From a virus: a DNA stretch of 26,465 nt. A model generated the notes under the pieces. The model was given only the letters and a program-made list of their open reading frames with translations, was not told where the DNA came from and did not search any database. Location of the stretch: positions 1 to 26,465 of IMG/VR virus record IMGVR_UViG_3300028829_000889; one strand, 5' to 3'. Made by a program: the position numbers and the translations under genes. Positions 1 through 22,953 of the stretch are shown piece after piece. Each line of letters starts with the position of its first letter. Within the stretch, counting starts at the first letter, position 1.

Positions 1-1967
1 CTTCTATTACTACGGGGTACTCTAATGTTTCTATAGGATACAGTGCTTTAGGTGGACAATCAGGGCATACTACTATTGCTATTGGCCATTCTGCTGTTTC
101 TGGTGGTTCTTACACAGGTAACAACAATGTTGGTATTGGTTATGGCGCACTCAGTGCTGCAACTAGTGCATATAATAGCGTAGCAATAGGTACAGAGGCT
201 TTAGACGATATTACTACAGGGAACAGCAACACTGCTGTAGGTTTTCATGCTGGTACAACACTAACTACCGGAACACAAAATGTTATGCTTGGTAGATACG
301 CAATGCGATATAGTACAATCGCAGGAAACAACACTGCTATTGGCACAAATGCAATGCGTAACATGTCTACAGGAACGCATAACATTGGAATAGGCTCAAG
401 CGTTGCTTCTAGTGCTGCAATTACTGGCAGCAACAATGTACTCTTAGGATATCAAACTGCTCATAAAATAACTAGCGGCAGTCATAACATTATGGCAGGA
501 AACCTAGCTGGTTTTGACTTAGAAGCTGGCTCATACAATGTGTTTTTAGGTTACAATTCTGGTTCAGATATAACATCAGGCTCAGACAATATTGCTATTG
601 GGCGCAATGCATTAGCTGATATAACTACTGGCGGTAATATGGTTGCTATTGGGCAAAATGCATTAGGTGATGCAACAACTAGTACAGCTAGTATGGTTGC
701 TATTGGCTACAGCGCAGGAAATTTTAATGCCTACGGCCTCTATAACGTTTCCATAGGCCAAACTGCAGGGACAAGATTTGGCCAAAATGGCAGCAATAAC
801 GTAGCCATTGGTAGAGAAGCGATGGGTTCAAACTCGCAGTCAGGGTATACGAACAGCTATAACGTAGTTGTTGGTTCTTATGCTATGCGAGCCCCAGGAG
901 CGTCAGGCAGCGCATCCCATAATACGATATTAGGTTACTACGCTGGAACTGCAATAACATCAGGAGATGGTAATACAATAACTGGTTCCAATGCTGGAAT
1001 GCGCATTACAACAGGTGGTTACAACGTAGGAACAGGCTCTGAGGCTTTAGCCTATGTTACTACAGCGGATAACAATGTTGCTATAGGTAATATGGCTGGG
1101 AAACAGATTACTACAGGTTCAGAAAACGTTGCAATTGGCTATCAAGCTTTAGATGCTCTGACCACTGGTACTGGTATTGTAGCTGTTGGTAGAAGTGCTG
1201 GTGGTGCTTATACAGGTTCAAACAATTTTGTCGCTATTGGACAATATTGTTTTCCTACTAGTGGAGGTATGAGTGAATCAGTAGGAATTGGTTATGGAGT
1301 TGGTTGGGGAATGACTTCTGGCGGCGCTAACGTTCTTATAGGTTTTTCTACAGCAATAGCAAACACAGGCGGCGGCTCTAATACATATGTAGGATATCGT
1401 GTTTCAGGTAATGCTAACGTTGCAGGGACTGGAAGTAACAACGTAGGAATAGGTTATAACGCTTTATACAACCAAACAAGCGGGTATACTAACACAGCAG
1501 TTGGCGTAAATGCTGGAAATAGCCTTACAACAGGCTCAAACAATACTATTATTGGATATGATGCAGATGCTACATCTGCAACAGTGAATAATGAAATTAC
1601 GTTAGGTAATAGTAGTATTTCTGTTCTCCGTTGCGCAACTCAATCAATTAATGCATTATCTGATGCCCGTGATAAAACAAACATAGCATCACTACAAGCT
1701 GGGCTTAATTTTGTAGAACACTTAAATCCAGTATCGTTTACTTGGAACATGCGTGATGGTGGAAAAGTTGGTATAGAAGACACTGGCTTTATTGCCCAAG
1801 ATTTACAGCAAGTACAGCAAGATACTGGAGTAAATATCCCCGGATTAGTCTATGATGAAAATCCAGAAAAACTAGAAGCCTCTTATGGTAGATTAATTCC
1901 AGTGTTAGTTCAGGCAATTAAAGACTTGTCTGCTAAAGTAAATGAGCTTGAGGCACAAATTAAATAA
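1..1967 (+). CDS. Tail fibre/spike with YadA-like repeats and C-terminal S74 chaperone (5' end cut off)
   Basis: The frame is open to the left edge (first whole codon at base 3), so the start lies outside; 654 residues are visible. An ATG at 285 is internal, because the same repeat pattern continues upstream of it. Most of the protein is a run of imperfect repeats of the type N-N-V-A-I-G-x-x-A-G/L, spaced by T-T-G-S or similar, as in the left-handed beta-roll heads of YadA-like trimeric proteins. The last ~100 residues are a peptidase S74 intramolecular chaperone: the motif SDARDKTNI (bases 1659-1685) contains the Ser-Lys pair used for self-cleavage, followed by F-x-W and a C-terminal coiled coil (LVQAIKDLSAKVNELEAQ). 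By family knowledge the chaperone trimerises the fibre and is then released. Role inferred: host-receptor recognition. The S74 call is firm; fibre versus spike is not resolved. Confidence 0.9.
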   Translation, partial: SITTGYSNVSIGYSALGGQSGHTTIAIGHSAVSGGSYTGNNNVGIGYGALSAATSAYNSVAIGTEALDDITTGNSNTAVGFHAGTTLTTGTQNVMLGRYAMRYSTIAGNNTAIGTNAMRNMSTGTHNIGIGSSVASSAAITGSNNVLLGYQTAHKITSGSHNIMAGNLAGFDLEAGSYNVFLGYNSGSDITSGSDNIAIGRNALADITTGGNMVAIGQNALGDATTSTASMVAIGYSAGNFNAYGLYNVSIGQTAGTRFGQNGSNNVAIGREAMGSNSQSGYTNSYNVVVGSYAMRAPGASGSASHNTILGYYAGTAITSGDGNTITGSNAGMRITTGGYNVGTGSEALAYVTTADNNVAIGNMAGKQITTGSENVAIGYQALDALTTGTGIVAVGRSAGGAYTGSNNFVAIGQYCFPTSGGMSESVGIGYGVGWGMTSGGANVLIGFSTAIANTGGGSNTYVGYRVSGNANVAGTGSNNVGIGYNALYNQTSGYTNTAVGVNAGNSLTTGSNNTIIGYDADATSATVNNEITLGNSSISVLRCATQSINALSDARDKTNIASLQAGLNFVEHLNPVSFTWNMRDGGKVGIEDTGFIAQDLQQVQQDTGVNIPGLVYDENPEKLEASYGRLIPVLVQAIKDLSAKVNELEAQIK

Positions 1968-5109: not shown

Positions 5110-7556
5110 TGGCATTTCTTGGTGGATTGATGAGCGGCACTACGGGTGCATTCATACGTGGTAGTTTAGATACTGCTACTGATTTAATACAAGCTAAGGC
5201 TGTTCGTGAGGAAGAGGATATCCAAGAACGCGTTCAAGGTTTTGGTGCTAAGAAACAAGCGTATGATACAGGTATAGCTGAGTACTCTAAAGAATCCAAA
5301 GAAATAGATAATATTGCACAGGTATTATCTATGCAAGATGATGACTTTCTTAAAGATGCTAGCCCTGATGAACTAAATAGTATAGCTCGTAATTTAATTA
5401 CTTTATCTGGTGGCAAAGACCCTATTGATTTTTATTTAAAAAGACGAGATGATTTAAATATTAAACGCATAAAACCAAAAGTAGATGTAGCCACACCCCA
5501 AGTGACTCAAACAGATGCTGCGCTTGCTGAAGCAAACACGCAAGATAACAATGAAGAAGGCTTTACTTCATTCTTGGGTACCCTATTTGGTGGACGTAGT
5601 GAAAATTCTATTGAAGAAGCCACAATGAAAAAATTGGGTGTTACTAAACAACAGTATGATGCAGTTATGGCCGGTAAAATGCCCACTCGTGCGCCATTAA
5701 GTGCGGGAGTAACTGTAGCACCTACGGACAAACTAGAAAAAATAATTAATAAAAATTCTGAAGCAGTTGGAAAAATTGTAACCACCCAAGAATTTTTAAA
5801 AATAGATAATCTTGTGTTACCGGATAATACGACTGTTACCGGTAAACAGTTTGCAGGAAGCTTAATTAAAGCAGAACAGGCTTACGCAGAATCTGGTGAA
5901 GGGGGCGAAGCCATCATAGCTATGCAAAATTTTGCCCTTACTGCACTTCTTCCAGATGAAGCAAAAGGTATATTTAAAGATGTATTTGGACCTCAAATAT
6001 CAAAGATACAAACAGCATTAGCCAGTCCCTTACTTCCTCAAAAGCAAGCTGACCGTCTTCAGAACATTAATGACCAGCTTGTTGATGCACAGCTTGCTTC
6101 TTATCAAAATACAGGAAATAATAATGCTGCATTCTTAAAAAATGTAAAGTCTTTAATAAATCAAGGTTTGGGTATTGCTCGTCTTGTCCCAAAAGAAGCG
6201 GGTAAACTTCCCCTACAAGCGCAGTTTATTGATGAAAGTATTAAAGATTTGTTAGGTAAATCAAATAGCACATCAGCTACAGCTCCGCAGCTAAAAGATG
6301 ATGTTAAAGAAGAAGTATATGGGTTAAGGAGTGAGCTTAGAAAAGCACTAGAGAGTGACGATGCGCCGTCTGCCCTTACTGCCTTAGCTGCAAAAGTAAA
6401 GCATCTCAGTGCCACAGCATTTCAACCCGCATCTACTGATGATAAACCAACTGCGGCAGAGACTAACCAAAGTGCAATGTTTGACATTGTTAAGAAAATG
6501 CCCGAATTTAAAAACTACAATAACGAAGCCCTTAATAAAATTGCTTCTCAAATGATGCTCATTAATCCAAAAGGTATTTTTGATGATGATGACAATGGAA
6601 CTTTTGTAATGATTCCAGCATCCCCAAATGATGACACAGGTTTACCTTCAAAACTTTACATAAAAACCATGCTGCCATCAGGCGCCACAACATCAGCAAC
6701 AGGCAAACAAATTAAGGCCGATGCTGACAAAATGTCTAAAAACAACGCAGATTTTTCAAAACTAGCCCGTCTGTATAAGGGTGTTGAAGACAATCCTCTT
6801 GTGTTTACTGCTTTCGGTGCAATGACTGTAGGTGGTCAAACATACGCAGATATAGCTGGGCATCTAAGTAAAACTAGGCTAGGTACACTTTATAGGGATT
6901 ATTTTAATGCTGCTGAACAGGCTGAAATACGGCGTGAGGCAATCTCTTTAGTTGGAAGTGCTAAGGACCGTTTGTTTGACGACCCCCGTTTGTCTGACCA
7001 AGATTTGAAACTTGTGTTAAAATACATTGCTGTTCTTGGAGAAGATGGTTCGGGAATGGGTACAGGTTCCACCGCAGCTTTGGCGGCTTTGCATGGTCTA
7101 CAAATAGCATTATTGCGTGACAACGCAGCAAGATTGTATAGGTCAAAAGGGTTCGCAGATGCACCTGATACCATACTACCTGTAAATCATAAAGGTGGTA
7201 TGTTGATGGCTGGTTCTTTCTATAAAGATGGGAAGTTTGTATCAGATGGCTCAATGGCTTCTACGCTATATCAACAAATCGCACTTGCATATGGAATACC
7301 AATTGAATCTAAAGATTCAATAGCTGCTATGTCACCACAAGAAGAATATCTTTACGGTAAAAAAGTAGATATGATTATGGCAATGACTGATGCAGCTTTA
7401 GAAGATGTAAAAACACATTACATCTACGGGAAGGCTGGAAGACCTCAGAGAGCTAATTTAATGGATATGGGCACTGTTGATGACAAAGGGGTAATGGTAA
7501 TTGATGGTGTTAAGTACACTGTACAAAAACTTGAAGACGTAAGAGGTTCTGCATAA
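5109..7556 (+). CDS. Probable internal virion protein (815 aa)
   Basis: The start overlaps the preceding stop (TAATG at 5107-5111). The N-terminus is glycine-rich and weakly hydrophobic (MAFLGGLMSGTTGAFIRGSL) followed by a charged helix (IQAKAVREEEDIQERV). The body is long, helical and polar with no cysteine motif, signal peptide or clear membrane segment. Size and position, just upstream of an even larger protein at the end of the late operon, match the internal core/ejection proteins of T7-like podoviruses (gp15/gp16). I see no lytic transglycosylase motif. The call is by position, size and character, not by recognised homology. Confidence 0.7.
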   Translation: MAFLGGLMSGTTGAFIRGSLDTATDLIQAKAVREEEDIQERVQGFGAKKQAYDTGIAEYSKESKEIDNIAQVLSMQDDDFLKDASPDELNSIARNLITLSGGKDPIDFYLKRRDDLNIKRIKPKVDVATPQVTQTDAALAEANTQDNNEEGFTSFLGTLFGGRSENSIEEATMKKLGVTKQQYDAVMAGKMPTRAPLSAGVTVAPTDKLEKIINKNSEAVGKIVTTQEFLKIDNLVLPDNTTVTGKQFAGSLIKAEQAYAESGEGGEAIIAMQNFALTALLPDEAKGIFKDVFGPQISKIQTALASPLLPQKQADRLQNINDQLVDAQLASYQNTGNNNAAFLKNVKSLINQGLGIARLVPKEAGKLPLQAQFIDESIKDLLGKSNSTSATAPQLKDDVKEEVYGLRSELRKALESDDAPSALTALAAKVKHLSATAFQPASTDDKPTAAETNQSAMFDIVKKMPEFKNYNNEALNKIASQMMLINPKGIFDDDDNGTFVMIPASPNDDTGLPSKLYIKTMLPSGATTSATGKQIKADADKMSKNNADFSKLARLYKGVEDNPLVFTAFGAMTVGGQTYADIAGHLSKTRLGTLYRDYFNAAEQAEIRREAISLVGSAKDRLFDDPRLSDQDLKLVLKYIAVLGEDGSGMGTGSTAALAALHGLQIALLRDNAARLYRSKGFADAPDTILPVNHKGGMLMAGSFYKDGKFVSDGSMASTLYQQIALAYGIPIESKDSIAAMSPQEEYLYGKKVDMIMAMTDAALEDVKTHYIYGKAGRPQRANLMDMGTVDDKGVMVIDGVKYTVQKLEDVRGSA

Positions 7557-14905: not shown

Positions 14906-15082
14906 TCAATCACAAGAGTCCATTCTAGACATGTAAGCGACGTACTTATTATCTTCTAGGGCTGTTTTAATAACTTTTGTATCGTAGCCCAATGATGGAT
15001 ACATTCTGTAGTACCTATCTATATCTTCTTGTAGTTCTGCAGAACTTTCGGCTTCTAACCTACGTCGAATATCTTTTGGCAT
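14906..15082 (-). CDS. Very small protein of unknown function (58 aa)
   Basis: An ATG at 15082, with AAAGG 9 bases upstream, opens 58 codons starting MPKDIRRRLEAESSAELQED and ending MSRMDSCD before a TGA at 14906-14908. It overlaps the methyltransferase's 3' end by 23 bases and ends 8 bases before the DUF3310 start, so it occupies the only space between them. The centre has several tyrosines (DRYYRMYPSLGY). No family recognised. Confidence 0.65.
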   Translation of the reverse strand: MPKDIRRRLEAESSAELQEDIDRYYRMYPSLGYDTKVIKTALEDNKYVAYMSRMDSCD

Positions 15083-16076
15083 TTTCTACTACCTTTATTG
15101 ATTCAGCAATTTGTTGTGCGATTTGAGGGACAATGGCATTGCCTAGTCCTTTAAGTCTGTCCACCCTTTTGGGTATCCCATTAGCCACTCTACCCACATT
15201 GGGTTCAGTTGTCCACCAGTTTTGCTTTGATTGTCCGTGTGTTGCACTGCTACATCCAGTGTGTCCCACGATACCTTGCCGTTGCGTATCCTGCCACCCT
15301 GATAGCCGCCCTTGTGGTCTCTGGTTGTCGGAGTCGGCCACATCCGTACTTGGTCCGCTAGATTCGCTCCAAACTTCAGGTCTGGATTCGTCTTGCTTAT
15401 CCTGCGACCCTTCTCGTCCAGTTGGCGTGGGCCGCCCGTCCCATCCGTGGTCCTTGGAGTTGCCCACATCTTCACGTATTCTGGATTCACCTGTTCCCGC
15501 AGATTGCTGGGACGCTTCCTGCCCTTCCTGTGACCCTCTTTCATTCTCTCCATGCTCTCCTTGGAGCGTAGAGGTAGATGGTCCATTGTGTTCGGTGTAG
15601 CCCACAATCCAGACTCTATCTCGCTTATGGGGTGCGCCGATGCCGCTAGCTGGAACAATAAACGTCCTTGTGGAGTAGCCTTCGGTTTCCAAGTCAAGGA
15701 GCACAGCGTCGAGTCCCAAGCTGATGTGACCATAAACGTTTTCGAAAACAACCCAAGAGGGTCTTTTGGATGCAACAATTTTGCGGATGTGCGGCCAGAT
15801 GTGACGTGGGTCTTCTTTGCCTTTCCGGTTTCCCGCTTGGGAGAAGGGCTGGCAAGGGTATCCTGCTGTGAGGATATCGCAGTCTGGAACAAGGTTGTCT
15901 GGGTCATTAGCTAATTCCTTTACATCTGATTTAATAGGTACGTTATTCCAGTGCTTCTTCAATATGTTCCTGCACCATTCCTCAATATCACAGAACATTA
16001 CTGGGGTTGATAATCCAGCCCACTCAAAACCAAGAGCGAACCCTCCAATACCACTACATAAATCTACGTGTCTCAC
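15060..16076 (-). CDS. DNA (cytosine-5) methyltransferase
   Basis: Motif I is DLCSGIGGF (residues 5-13). Motif IV is GYPCQPFS with catalytic C75. Motif VI is FENV (111-114). Motif VIII is HKRDRVWIVG (150-159), and motif X is GLGNAIVPQIAQQI (310-323). It transfers methyl from SAM to C5 of cytosine, presumably to protect phage DNA from host restriction. The start is GTG at 16076, with CGGAG 7 bases before it; motif I begins at once, so no later start is possible. Residues about 161-286, where the target recognition domain belongs, are low in complexity and rich in G, S, Q, E and D. That same DNA encodes a second frame (15143-15907). Confidence 0.92.
   Translation of the reverse strand: MRHVDLCSGIGGFALGFEWAGLSTPVMFCDIEEWCRNILKKHWNNVPIKSDVKELANDPDNLVPDCDILTAGYPCQPFSQAGNRKGKEDPRHIWPHIRKIVASKRPSWVVFENVYGHISLGLDAVLLDLETEGYSTRTFIVPASGIGAPHKRDRVWIVGYTEHNGPSTSTLQGEHGENERGSQEGQEASQQSAGTGESRIREDVGNSKDHGWDGRPTPTGREGSQDKQDESRPEVWSESSGPSTDVADSDNQRPQGRLSGWQDTQRQGIVGHTGCSSATHGQSKQNWWTTEPNVGRVANGIPKRVDRLKGLGNAIVPQIAQQIAESIKVVENAKRYST
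15143..15907 (-). CDS. Overlapping gene candidate inside the methyltransferase gene (254 aa)
   Basis: The frame is +1 relative to the methyltransferase on the same strand. Its ATG is preceded by AAAGGA at an 8-base spacing, an unusually good ribosome binding site. The product has N-terminal S/T/K-rich sequence, then CSLTWKPKATPQGRLLFQLA. Three W-x-T-P motifs follow at about 45-residue spacing (WATPNTMD at 102, WATPRTTDGTGG at 148, WPTPTTRDHKGG at 190), and the C-terminus is GGQLNPMWVEWLMGYPKGW. I recall this combination from proteins encoded within phage C5-methyltransferase genes. Tryptophan-rich, repeated and patterned sequence is not what a chance frame gives, whereas the methyltransferase frame here is low in complexity. 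Function is unknown. Confidence 0.6.
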   Translation of the reverse strand: MTQTTLFQTAISSQQDTLASPSPKRETGKAKKTHVTSGRTSAKLLHPKDPLGLFSKTFMVTSAWDSTLCSLTWKPKATPQGRLLFQLAASAHPISEIESGLWATPNTMDHLPLRSKESMERMKEGHRKGRKRPSNLREQVNPEYVKMWATPRTTDGTGGPRQLDEKGRRISKTNPDLKFGANLADQVRMWPTPTTRDHKGGYQGGRIRNGKVSWDTLDVAVQHTDNQSKTGGQLNPMWVEWLMGYPKGWTDLKD

Positions 16077-18607: not shown

Positions 18608-20728
18608 TCACATAGCTTGTTGGTAGTCAAGCGCAAAAGTATCCATGTCGAGCCAATTTTTTCCTACCTCGACATCGACTTCAAGTGGCACCACCCACTT
18701 GACATTGTAAAGTTCTTCAAAAGCCTTAGTCACACCAGTCATTGCGTCATATGTAATCCTAGCAACCAATGCCTCCTCACCAGGATACACGTCCAAAACT
18801 ATAGAGTCGTGGACCGTATTGATGACAATAGACTTACAGCTATTATCTCTAAGTGCACGGTGCAACGAAAGCATCGCCAACGGCACCAAGCAACCACCCG
18901 CCATACCTTGTACAGGGTAGTTCTTGATGGAGGGCGCTCCCGATGCAGCACCTGAAGAAAGGCGTCTAGCATCTGGAAAAGCAAATTGCTGACCAGTGAG
19001 CAAAGTAACACTATTGTGTGAAATAGCCTCAGTCTGCAAATCTTGATGCCATTTAGCAAGCTTTGGGTATTTCTCTGTAAACGCTTGGTAGTAAGCCATC
19101 TCGCTTGGTGTGCCGGTAGACCCTCCATAGAGAGGTTTGAACGTGTGCGCTTTGGCGTCTGTTCTTTCATCCTTGGTAACTTCAGCTTCTGGCTTATTAA
19201 AGATAACTGACGCAGTATACTTGTGAACATCAACACCATCTAAAATATCCTTTATCATAGCATCATCACCGCTCATCTGCGCGGCAACACGGAACTCTAG
19301 CTGACTGTAATCAGCCTGTAAAATTGTACCGTTGTCAAACCTAGATATAACAACACGGCGCACTGGGAACGTGTTACCCCGTGGCTGGTTCTGAAAGTTA
19401 GGGTCAGATGAAGACAGGCGAGTGGTACGAGTAATACACTGGTTAAACTTGGGGTGTAGGATGCCGTTAGGCTTCACGTTACGGGCTATACCACCCACAA
19501 AGCTAGAAAGATACACCTCGACTGCGTTGAGCCGTACAGCGGCCTTTAAGAAGGTTTCTGCACTTTCGTTACCCTTGTGAACAGCGGCCTTTAACAGGCG
19601 AAGCAAAGTGGTTTTATCTGTAGAAAAACCGCTGGCAGATACATCCAGCACACCTTGTGGATTCATTGTGAGTCCACCGATTTTAGGTAGTGGCTCCTGT
19701 ATGTATCCTTCTCCAGCACAAGTTCTACACTTAGTGGGTTTCTTCCATAGCTCGCCATTAACCTTAGTTTTCCAGAACTCTCCCTTACCTAAGCATTGGC
19801 GGCAATGCACAGCACGTGTTTTATATATTCTGGTAGTCATTTTTTTGACAGTGGCAGCAAACTGTGCAGTGCTCATCTGTGGACGATGCAGGGGCTTGCC
19901 CTTATCGTTCAGTCCAATATTAAATATCTCCGCCCATTTCTTTTTGTCGGTGATACGGCGTGAATAGATAAGTTCACTCATCTGTGCCGGTGATGCAAAG
20001 TTGACAGGGCGGTCGCCCATAACCTCATGGCACACATCCTCAAGCTTTATCTGTAGCTCAGAGCGTTCAATCTGGTAGTCAGAGCGAACCTTGTGAAGTT
20101 CTGTGAAGTCAATCTTGATTCCATTCTGTTCTAGCGTAGCCAACACAGGCAGGAAGTTGTTCATAAGCTTCAGGTGTTTACGAAGCGGTGCATTTCTGTC
20201 CTCAGAGTATAGCTTACGTTGTGCATAAAATAGCTCACGTGTGGACACAACATCAGCGATGCCGTATTCCTCAACAATATCCTTTGGCATCTTGTCAAAG
20301 CCTATACCACTACGGATGTACTCCTCAATCAAGTCGCCCTTCTTTAAGGATACCTTGCGTCTGGTACAGCTATCTGCCAAGCTTACGCCCCAGTTCTGGC
20401 AGCGCAATAGCAGATATTCACCAATCATGGTGTCATACACATCACCGTCATACTGAAAGCCAGACTCCCATAGCCACACCAAATCAAACTTAATGTTGTG
20501 GCCGATAAGCAGGGTAGTCTTATCTAAAGCATTCTGTACATCATTGTGAACTTCACGTGTGTCAATGGTTTCTGTGTCATGGTGAAACCAACGGAACACC
20601 GGCTCAGCATCCTCAATGGCATACTGTACGGATACAAGCTTGTTGTCCTTGTGAAACGGTGAAGGGTCGGTACGTTTAGTCTCAGGGTTCTTTTGAAACA
20701 TTGTTTCAACATCAAGTGTAGTAATCAT
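18608..20728 (-). CDS. polA: Family A DNA polymerase with DnaJ-type zinc finger insert
   Basis: Exonuclease domain: Exo I LDVET (D6, E8), Exo II GHNIKFD (N78, D82), Exo III YGIAD (Y155, D159). Residues 309-341 hold CRQCLGKGEF and CRTCAGEGY, a DnaJ-like zinc finger. Polymerase motif A is ILQADYSQLEFR (D473), motif B is R522-K526-F530-Y534 and motif C is VHDS (H640, D641). The residue equivalent to E. coli Pol I 762 is Phe (F530). This domain order is, to my knowledge, the mark of HMO-2011-type marine phages. It replicates phage DNA with the primase and helicase upstream. GAGGTG stands 4 bases before the ATG. The start overlaps the previous stop as ATGA. Confidence 0.95.
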   Translation of the reverse strand: MITTLDVETMFQKNPETKRTDPSPFHKDNKLVSVQYAIEDAEPVFRWFHHDTETIDTREVHNDVQNALDKTTLLIGHNIKFDLVWLWESGFQYDGDVYDTMIGEYLLLRCQNWGVSLADSCTRRKVSLKKGDLIEEYIRSGIGFDKMPKDIVEEYGIADVVSTRELFYAQRKLYSEDRNAPLRKHLKLMNNFLPVLATLEQNGIKIDFTELHKVRSDYQIERSELQIKLEDVCHEVMGDRPVNFASPAQMSELIYSRRITDKKKWAEIFNIGLNDKGKPLHRPQMSTAQFAATVKKMTTRIYKTRAVHCRQCLGKGEFWKTKVNGELWKKPTKCRTCAGEGYIQEPLPKIGGLTMNPQGVLDVSASGFSTDKTTLLRLLKAAVHKGNESAETFLKAAVRLNAVEVYLSSFVGGIARNVKPNGILHPKFNQCITRTTRLSSSDPNFQNQPRGNTFPVRRVVISRFDNGTILQADYSQLEFRVAAQMSGDDAMIKDILDGVDVHKYTASVIFNKPEAEVTKDERTDAKAHTFKPLYGGSTGTPSEMAYYQAFTEKYPKLAKWHQDLQTEAISHNSVTLLTGQQFAFPDARRLSSGAASGAPSIKNYPVQGMAGGCLVPLAMLSLHRALRDNSCKSIVINTVHDSIVLDVYPGEEALVARITYDAMTGVTKAFEELYNVKWVVPLEVDVEVGKNWLDMDTFALDYQQAM

Positions 20729-21057
20729 TTTTCACCTCGCAATACATAATTGTTTACAAAATGTGAAATATCATCTTTGTGCATGTACCATTTGCTACGG
20801 CCTTTTGCACGCCATTTATTTGATATTAAGCTTACTACAAATCTGTCATTGATAATTACAAGACCGGAGTTGTAATCTTCTATAGTCACATCATGCTCCA
20901 GTAACCTGATTAACTTTTCTATGCGGGCTACTTCTCTGCTTGGTGCATTACTATACTGTGACTTATTGTAATTAGCTATTTCTAAGCTTTCGGAAGCTCT
21001 TTTATTCTTCTTTAAGTCAAGAAGCAGGGCAGGTAAATCATCCTTTGTATACATCAT
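20725..21057 (-). CDS. Small protein of unknown function between helicase and polymerase (110 aa)
   Basis: Starts with overlapping ATGATG at the helicase stop codon and ends overlapping the polymerase ATG. The first half is helical and lysine-rich (LLLDLKKNKRASESLEIAN; REVARIEKLIRLLEHDV). The second half is a beta segment (GLVIINDRFVVSLISNKWR) followed by KWYMHKDDISHFVNNYV. Its position between the two core replication enzymes suggests a replication role, but I recognise no family. Confidence 0.75.
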   Translation of the reverse strand: MMYTKDDLPALLLDLKKNKRASESLEIANYNKSQYSNAPSREVARIEKLIRLLEHDVTIEDYNSGLVIINDRFVVSLISNKWRAKGRSKWYMHKDDISHFVNNYVLRGEK

Positions 21058-21293
21058 GCTGTGTACCTACTCGTATCTGTGTCTAGGTTGCATACTATAT
21101 TACCATGGAATCCGGTCAACTTGTTTTTAGATATTGTGAGATAGCGCTGTCTTTCATTATCAGAAACGTCTTGTTTGCCAATGCCAATAATCAAATCAGC
21201 TTCAGCAGCTTTACCGGTCTTACTATTCTCCATCATTGCATACGTAACTTTAGTTCTACTCTCTGCATCCGCTGAGGCTTGGCTTATGCCCAC
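21054..21293 (-). CDS. DnaB-like helicase, C-terminal part in a separate frame
   Basis: This frame begins GISQASADAES (RecA-fold motif H3 with its glutamine), then AMMENSKTGKAAEADLIIG and RYLTISKNKLTG, the expected continuation of a hexameric phage helicase. It is +1 relative to the frame holding the Walker motifs. In this frame a TGA lies 12 bases before the possible GTG at 21293, and no good ribosome binding site is seen, so independent initiation looks unlikely. The join with the preceding part seems about ten residues short: the beta strand that should precede GISQ is missing. It could be made by frameshifting, or the gene is broken. The part stops at an ATGA overlap with the next gene. 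Confidence 0.7.
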   Translation of the reverse strand: MGISQASADAESRTKVTYAMMENSKTGKAAEADLIIGIGKQDVSDNERQRYLTISKNKLTGFHGNIVCNLDTDTSRYTA

Positions 21294-21831
21294 GGAACTT
21301 CAGGTATATCTGTCTTAGCTTCTCATCGGTACGGGCGAATGAACCCAGCACATCCAGCTTATCCAGTTGGTCAATGATGATGATGTCAGGCTTATGACGT
21401 TCACAGTGCTTGTTTAACCACTCAATACTGGCATCCACCTTATCAAACATGTTTAGGTTGGCGCCAATCTCTGTGAACTTTTCTTTTGCTAGTGAACGGC
21501 TATTGTATAGTTGTGCGCTATTAAACCCAGTGTACGCCGATATTGCACGTTTCATCGTACGAATAGCCGGCTCTTCATTAGTAATGATGTGGACGTTTGC
21601 GCCTTGTGCACAAAAACCATTTGGTGCAGCGGCTAACGATATATAAAAAGCTGTTTTACCTAATTCTGGCCTAGCAAATGCAATCATAAATTCACCACCA
21701 CGCCCACCACGGACAACTTTAGCTAGGGATGGGATGTTAAACTCCCAACAGTTGGCGTTCTTTTCAAACTCTAGTAGCTCATCCAAGTCAGTGGTGACTG
21801 GTTGTAGTTCATCATCAGGTATGGATTTCAT
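21256..21831 (-). CDS. DnaB-like helicase, Walker A/B part in a separate frame
   Basis: Holds the ATPase core: Walker A FARPELGKTAF (residues 52-62), the catalytic glutamate region NEE (85-87), and Walker B DIIIIDQLDKLD (D154). This matches the RecA-like motor of DnaB/T7 gp4-type replicative helicases that unwind DNA ahead of the polymerase. After LRQIYLKFR the frame runs 11 unrelated residues to a TAG, while the true continuation is in the +1 frame. The ATG at 21831 is a possible start but has no well-spaced ribosome binding site, and the N-terminal domain precedes it in yet another frame. As a stand-alone product it would lack motifs H3 and H4. Confidence 0.75.
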   Translation of the reverse strand: MKSIPDDELQPVTTDLDELLEFEKNANCWEFNIPSLAKVVRGGRGGEFMIAFARPELGKTAFYISLAAAPNGFCAQGANVHIITNEEPAIRTMKRAISAYTGFNSAQLYNSRSLAKEKFTEIGANLNMFDKVDASIEWLNKHCERHKPDIIIIDQLDKLDVLGSFARTDEKLRQIYLKFRGHKPSLSGCRE

Positions 21832-22204
21832 GTATTTTATCAGGATTGCCCTCCATCATGGCTAGTCCCATGTCAGCAATCTGCCTACCAATTTCTTGTT
21901 GCCACATGCTTTTGAGCACATCAGCTGCCACATCATCACCAATAGGTGGGTAGGCTTTTAGGTCATCAATAATCTCAGCAATCAGTTCGCGCTTAGCACG
22001 AGTAGCTGTAGGATTGTGAACCCGAAAGAGTTCACGTAATTCGTTAGCGGTTAAATCACGCTCATACTTTTCATGCCCGACAACAATTGTATCGTACAAG
22101 TCAGACAGTTCAGTTGGAAACATTGAACGCAATACGCGTGTTCTGTTTGTATCGTAAAACTCTTTACCAAGTAGGAGCTTTATCAGTTGTTGTTCTGTAG
22201 TAAT
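21815..22204 (-). CDS. DnaB-like helicase, N-terminal domain in a separate frame
   Basis: The frame is open from 22207 and reads ITTEQQLIKLLLGKEFYDTN, then RTRVLRSMFPTELSDLY, then DLTANELRELFRVHN and a helical region, as expected for the N-terminal domain of this helicase group. It has no ATG before an internal methionine. The first TTG is at 22132, leaving 24 helicase-like codons upstream of it. I set the start at an ATT (22204) because AGGAG stands exactly 8 bases before it. ATT is a rare but real bacterial start codon (infC). The alternative is -1 slippage from the primase frame. The frame ends in TGA at 21815, and the ATPase part resumes in the +1 frame. Confidence 0.6.
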   Translation of the reverse strand: MTTEQQLIKLLLGKEFYDTNRTRVLRSMFPTELSDLYDTIVVGHEKYERDLTANELRELFRVHNPTATRAKRELIAEIIDDLKAYPPIGDDVAADVLKSMWQQEIGRQIADMGLAMMEGNPDKIHEIHT

Positions 22205-22953
22205 TTTTTAATCTCCTGCGCATCATAATATTTCAGGTCATCATCTATTCTTATTATTGTTGTTGACACAAAGTACGATAGGTATTTTTGTAAGTCAAGT
22301 GCCTTACGAGTGGCGTCAGGGTCTAGGCACACAAATACGTGTTCATATTTACGTAGCTGTGTCAAGTCTGCATCTTTCATATTTGTTCCTAATAGCGCAA
22401 CGCCAGTAGCAACAGGGGATATGGCACAGGCAGATGCAGAATCTTCAACAAGCACAGCTGTATCATGTTCACCTGCTGTGAATAGTTTTTGTGATTTACC
22501 ATACCGATACCACTTTGGTATTGTTTTAGGCTTTAGGCTTCTGCCAATAGCATCGTACGTAATGCCGTTTTCTTTTACAAGAAACACAACCCTATCTTGC
22601 TTTGGGTCATACAGAATCCTGGCTCTTCCGTTTTCAAAAGCATCAATACAGTTATTTCGTTTTAGGTAATTTAAAGCACGGACATTATCTGTAAAAGGTG
22701 TGAACCATTCGGGAACTGTAAATTTTTCCGCGTCATGATAGAAAGTGATAGTATCGCGGATTTTTGACGCGATTTCTGTTTTTGAGCGTTCCATTTGCTC
22801 TGAGCCTTTTGTTTTACAGCTTGCTTTGTAGCAATTCCACAACAGCTTGCCATGTATTTTTGAAATGGTGAAGGTTCTACTTGCACAGGAGGGGCAAGCT
22901 ATACGTACAGAATTTCCTTCTGTCGGTGCATTCTTTAGAATGTAGCTTTTCAT
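22183..22953 (-). CDS. DNA primase (zinc ribbon plus Toprim), separate from helicase
   Basis: N-terminal zinc ribbon: C20-P-S-C23 and C41-x4-C46. Toprim: VLVEDSASACAI (E170) and VFVCLDPDA (D211, D213), the metal-binding residues of T7 gp4-type and DnaG-type primases. It makes RNA primers for lagging-strand synthesis. At 256 aa it equals the primase half of T7 gp4; the helicase half follows directly and overlaps it by about 22 bases. It is the first gene after a sigma70-like promoter and so heads the replication operon. Its 3' end contains a run of six A followed by TT, of interest for frameshifting into the helicase frame. Confidence 0.9.
   Translation of the reverse strand: MKSYILKNAPTEGNSVRIACPSCASRTFTISKIHGKLLWNCYKASCKTKGSEQMERSKTEIASKIRDTITFYHDAEKFTVPEWFTPFTDNVRALNYLKRNNCIDAFENGRARILYDPKQDRVVFLVKENGITYDAIGRSLKPKTIPKWYRYGKSQKLFTAGEHDTAVLVEDSASACAISPVATGVALLGTNMKDADLTQLRKYEHVFVCLDPDATRKALDLQKYLSYFVSTTIIRIDDDLKYYDAQEIKKLLQNNN

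Follow-up and report, generated by a model that had tools for sequence, protein, structure and literature searches.

A DnaB-like helicase gene lying in three reading frames around two 32-bp gaps, probably of technical origin, in a virus record with an HMO-2011-type replication module

All HMO-2011-type phages have the replicative helicase among their core genes (PMC9038755). In the cultured phages HTVC033P, HMO-2011 (a Puniceispirillum phage) and CRP-235 it is annotated as a single gene, and the order primase, helicase and family A DNA polymerase with a DnaJ-like insert is found in the annotation of HTVC033P and HMO-2011. Two mechanisms known from bacterial genes are relevant to the locus that we describe here: the site of the programmed +1 frameshift of prfB is made up of a CUU-UGA slip site and a spaced Shine-Dalgarno element, and AUU start codons, which are rare, are tied in the known bacterial cases to control by IF3.

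We have analysed the linear virus record IMGVR_UViG_3300028829_000889 over its whole length of 26,465 bp (hereafter, the window), the nearest named phages of which are Pelagibacter phage HTVC033P, Roseobacter phage CRP-235 and other HMO-2011-type phages. The window carries, on its minus strand, an HMO-2011-type replication module that shares with the named phages the order given above and includes further nucleic-acid genes and a B12-type ribonucleotide reductase; its helicase is homologous to the HMO-2011-type helicases over their full length and has the DnaB_C domain. The isolates and 80 metagenomic relatives have one uninterrupted helicase ORF, whereas the window is short by twice 32 bp. 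The features of the locus are listed in Table 1, where relatives are denoted by L and a number.

Table 1. Positions of the helicase pieces, of the two junctions and of the adjoining genes in the window.
Feature	Position	Strand	Evidence
DNA primase, intact, overlaps the helicase start	22183–22953	minus	ORF and domain annotation
Helicase (three frames)	21054–22204	minus	between primase and small ORF
Apparent AUU start inside the primase 3' end: AGGAG (22213–22217), 8 nt, ATT (22202–22204)	22202–22217	minus	window and close relatives
N-terminal piece, ATT (22202–22204) to TGA (21815–21817)	21815–22204	minus	97% identical to residues 1–127 of the intact L007/L082 protein
First junction: 32 bp missing between 21824 and 21823, 11 residues lost (KELVDKSENGF in L002/L007)	21823–21824	minus	alignment with six close relatives
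Core piece, an open frame that includes Walker A (ARPELGKT) and Walker B (IIIIDQ)	21256–21831	minus	Pfam DnaB_C, 2.5e-9
Second junction: 32 bp missing between 21291 and 21290, 11 residues lost (EVCKRHNVFGI)	21290–21291	minus	alignment with six close relatives
C-terminal piece, GISQASADAE... up to the stop codon; its ORF begins at the junction with a fortuitous GTG	21054–21293	minus	homology to intact relative
Family A DNA polymerase with DnaJ-like insert, intact, downstream in the same module	18608–20728	minus	ORF and domain annotation

A sequence-only reading of this DNA had recognised a single DnaB-like helicase distributed over three minus-strand frames, with neighbouring large genes that are intact. 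Both the gene, with its extent, and the state of its neighbours have been confirmed: the protein of one intact relative, used as a query, matches the window in three different frames with its residues 1–127, 139–315 and 320–404 (the upstream end of the last match is stretched by a few residues, by chance), the identity to the N-terminal, RecA and C-terminal parts of the intact protein is 89–97% in all three pieces, and the primase, the polymerase and the other large ORFs of the window are uninterrupted. The helicase of the window is neither a continuous ORF nor a complete RecA fold; two 32-bp losses have taken 22 residues from it.

The comparison with intact genes has been conducted on relatives obtained from IMG/VR by searching with the core piece; 80 were recovered, the nearest of them 91–93% identical. 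The helicase is one uninterrupted frame in every one of the 80, apart from truncation at contig ends, and the stop codon of the first join does not exist in them. A pattern search has found neither junction in any other IMG/VR contig, so that the junctions which the earlier reading had proposed to compare with related phages are not conserved; a junction pattern with one G fewer, i.e. an in-frame 33-bp version, has no match in IMG/VR either. A core 35-mer specific to the window is likewise without a match elsewhere in IMG/VR, which therefore offers no near-identical contig for comparison. Across 475 gene-by-locus comparisons, we have found only one other frame break, an apparent single-base slip that seems to break the Cas4-like exonuclease gene of L035 (plus strand, about 5140–5155), and no fixed-length gap in other contigs.

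The DNA alignment of the window with six close relatives (L002, L003, L005, L006, L007 and L008; 91–93% amino-acid identity over the central piece) is co-linear through the helicase except for two gaps, each of exactly 32 bases, and for a difference of 3 bases with respect to L003 and L008. Both 32-base gaps recur in blastn alignments with four longer records. Each gap removes 11 residues and leaves one extra base over, which shifts the frame, and its placement is unambiguous, since no sliding to the left or to the right is possible at either join. The small deletion that had been suspected at the second join, where residues seemed to be missing before GISQ, is real in the sense of the alignment, where it costs 11 residues, with part of a helix and half a core strand; the loss is not limited to that join, the only one at which missing residues had been noted, because the first join is short by 11 residues as well. 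Neither join has microhomology, and slippage between repeats has for this reason been rejected as the cause of the deletions; the absence of flanking homology is nevertheless weak evidence, since about half of random deletions show none by chance. With 14-mer seeds, no copy of either removed 32-mer has been found elsewhere in the window. A connection with CRISPR spacers, suggested by the spacer-like length of 32 bp, has been dropped, there being no motif common to the flanks, and we know of no process that excises exact protospacers. A mosaic origin has also been rejected, because divergence climbs from about position 21830 onward without a sharp switch at the joins.

The consequences of the two losses have been considered on a structure model of an intact relative (mean pLDDT 75, about 76–91 around the second join). 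This relative's protein contains a DnaB_C domain, and its alignment to solved DnaB-like helicases extends across the region that is missing in the window, its RecA-type core (residues 145–373) being aligned with the structures PDB 3bh0/3bgw (E 5e-7); compared with these, the window has lost half of the strand that precedes the GISQ motif. According to the model, the second loss corresponds to residues 315–325, i.e. the end of the helix 302–319 and half of the strand 323–329, located just before GISQ; it includes E315, K318, R319 and I325, which are invariant in 26 sequences of relatives. The first loss covers the end of the helix 120–133 and part of the linker, where the confidence of the model is low. 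From the gene as written, no functional helicase is to be expected.

The pieces are nevertheless under strong purifying selection: against most relatives, their dN/dS is about 0.03–0.08, like that of the polymerase and the reductase, at dS up to 0.9; the C-terminal piece reaches up to 0.17 against L083, a comparison in which pairs of relatives give about 0.13. Over the stretch aligned to L082 (10970–22602), no further coding indel that breaks a frame has been seen. The low dN/dS, together with the lack of any other such indel, argues that the breaks are either very recent or artefactual; by the measure of its substitutions, the gene would have worked until very recently, or would still work, the record being wrong.

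We consider it likely that the locus is the ordinary replicative helicase gene of a marine phage of the HMO-2011 type, from which two 32-bp stretches have been lost at two places through an error of assembly or of record processing. Two gaps of equal length, without flanking homology, in one core gene of a record that shows no other damage are better explained by a systematic join error than by two independent mutations, and it is on this ground that we infer a technical origin; two equal lengths can, on the other hand, coincide. Identical gaps would arise if pieces of the assembly graph were joined with a fixed-length overlap trimmed from both sides, although this assembler mechanism is a guess. 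The earlier judgement that sequencing noise explains the locus poorly is correct as regards random errors of single bases, but does not extend to a join error in the assembly, which is the best explanation. That the deletions are real is a possibility to which we give distinctly less credence: the genome would be a recently mutated, defective one or a minority variant, the first deletion having inactivated the helicase and the second having followed under relaxed selection, and the genome possibly being propagated with the help of intact relatives. Both deletions do fall within a single gene, which would be expected after its inactivation, and the record reads cleanly across both joins; yet the helicase is a core gene (PMC9038755), there is no other decay and dN/dS is still low, the deletions are identical in length, and their junctions occur in no other contig. 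A second DnaB-type helicase is absent from the record, which covers only about half a genome, so that one could lie outside it. Very improbable, in our view, is a real event in which the two 32-bp losses have a common cause, namely a process that removes stretches of phage DNA of fixed length.

The readings in which the three frames are themselves functional fare worse. The sequence-only reading had noted that, past the stop of the N-terminal frame at the first join, skipping one base gives a direct continuation, and had conceived of a programmed +1 shift like that of prfB; a full-length helicase made by such shifting at one or both joins has a practically negligible probability. The window does resemble prfB in having a stop codon where a one-base skip would continue the protein, and such a skip rejoins the frame at each join, but 11 residues per join would still be missing after the shift, so that the continuation at the first join is not direct and the product is not equal to the full-length homologue. 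Moreover, the stop, the skipped base and the junctions are absent from all relatives, the ACC TGA of the window has neither the slip site nor the stimulatory element of prfB, and RNA structure at the two joins does not exceed chance (z 1.1 and 0.1). Hardly more credible is the production of three polypeptides that assemble from parts, by reinitiation at overlapping internal starts (ATG 21831 and GTG 21293): overlap of the ORFs and a nominal start codon in each speak for it, but no good Shine-Dalgarno sequence is found at the usual spacing before either internal start, the three pieces together fall short of a whole RecA fold, and none of the relatives has this arrangement. Since the shift does not restore the residues and the internal Shine-Dalgarno sequences are poor, neither recoding nor a helicase in three pieces is plausible, and the split gene reveals no new mechanism of gene expression. 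It serves rather as a warning: where a core gene is broken by equal-length gaps in one metagenome contig and is intact in dozens of relatives, a fault of assembly should be suspected before recoding.

The start of the gene is of separate interest. Upstream of the conserved N terminus, neither ATG nor GTG nor TTG occurs in the helicase frame; instead, both the window and its close relatives have an ATT 8 nt after GGAG, within the 3' end of the primase gene. We have scanned IMG/VR with a pattern that does not fix the start codon (GGAGAT, nine unspecified bases and the conserved codons after them) and obtained 78 sequences, 54 of which encode the helicase: all 54 (28 of them distinct) have ATT at the start position, whereas the unrelated matches have TTG, GTG, ATG, TGG or CGC. 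One subclade has an additional ATG two codons after the ATT, L028 starts at ATG, its ATT being lost, and ATG is also the start in most of the more distant relatives. In this subgroup, the intact helicase thus apparently starts at a conserved AUU codon, though part of the ATT overlaps a leucine codon of the primase, which could account for some of the conservation. A fusion of primase and helicase by slippage on the A6 run before the ATT has been rejected, since the run is not conserved while the ATT is. In a short literature search, we have found no report of a phage helicase that starts with AUU. If confirmed, the AUU start would matter more than the split helicase, because such starts are rare and gene callers miss them.

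Additional observations concern other parts of the window. An ORF of 110 amino acids (20725–21057, minus strand), which separates the helicase from the polymerase, has a counterpart in L082, while in L083, L084 and L085 it is absent and the alignment passes directly from the helicase to the polymerase; its dN/dS of 0.42 indicates weak constraint. In the cytosine-5 DNA methylase gene (15060–16076, minus strand), Pfam DNA_methylase covers residues 1–186 only; a second long open frame of 254 amino acids (15143–15907, minus strand), without a Pfam match, overlaps this gene by 765 bases in a different frame and may be an overprinted gene, and two relatives differ from the window by many indels in this region. 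Lastly, the start of the window cuts a tail-fibre-like protein (3–1967, plus strand) with GIGY/AIG repeats and a C-terminal endosialidase chaperone domain (Peptidase_S74).
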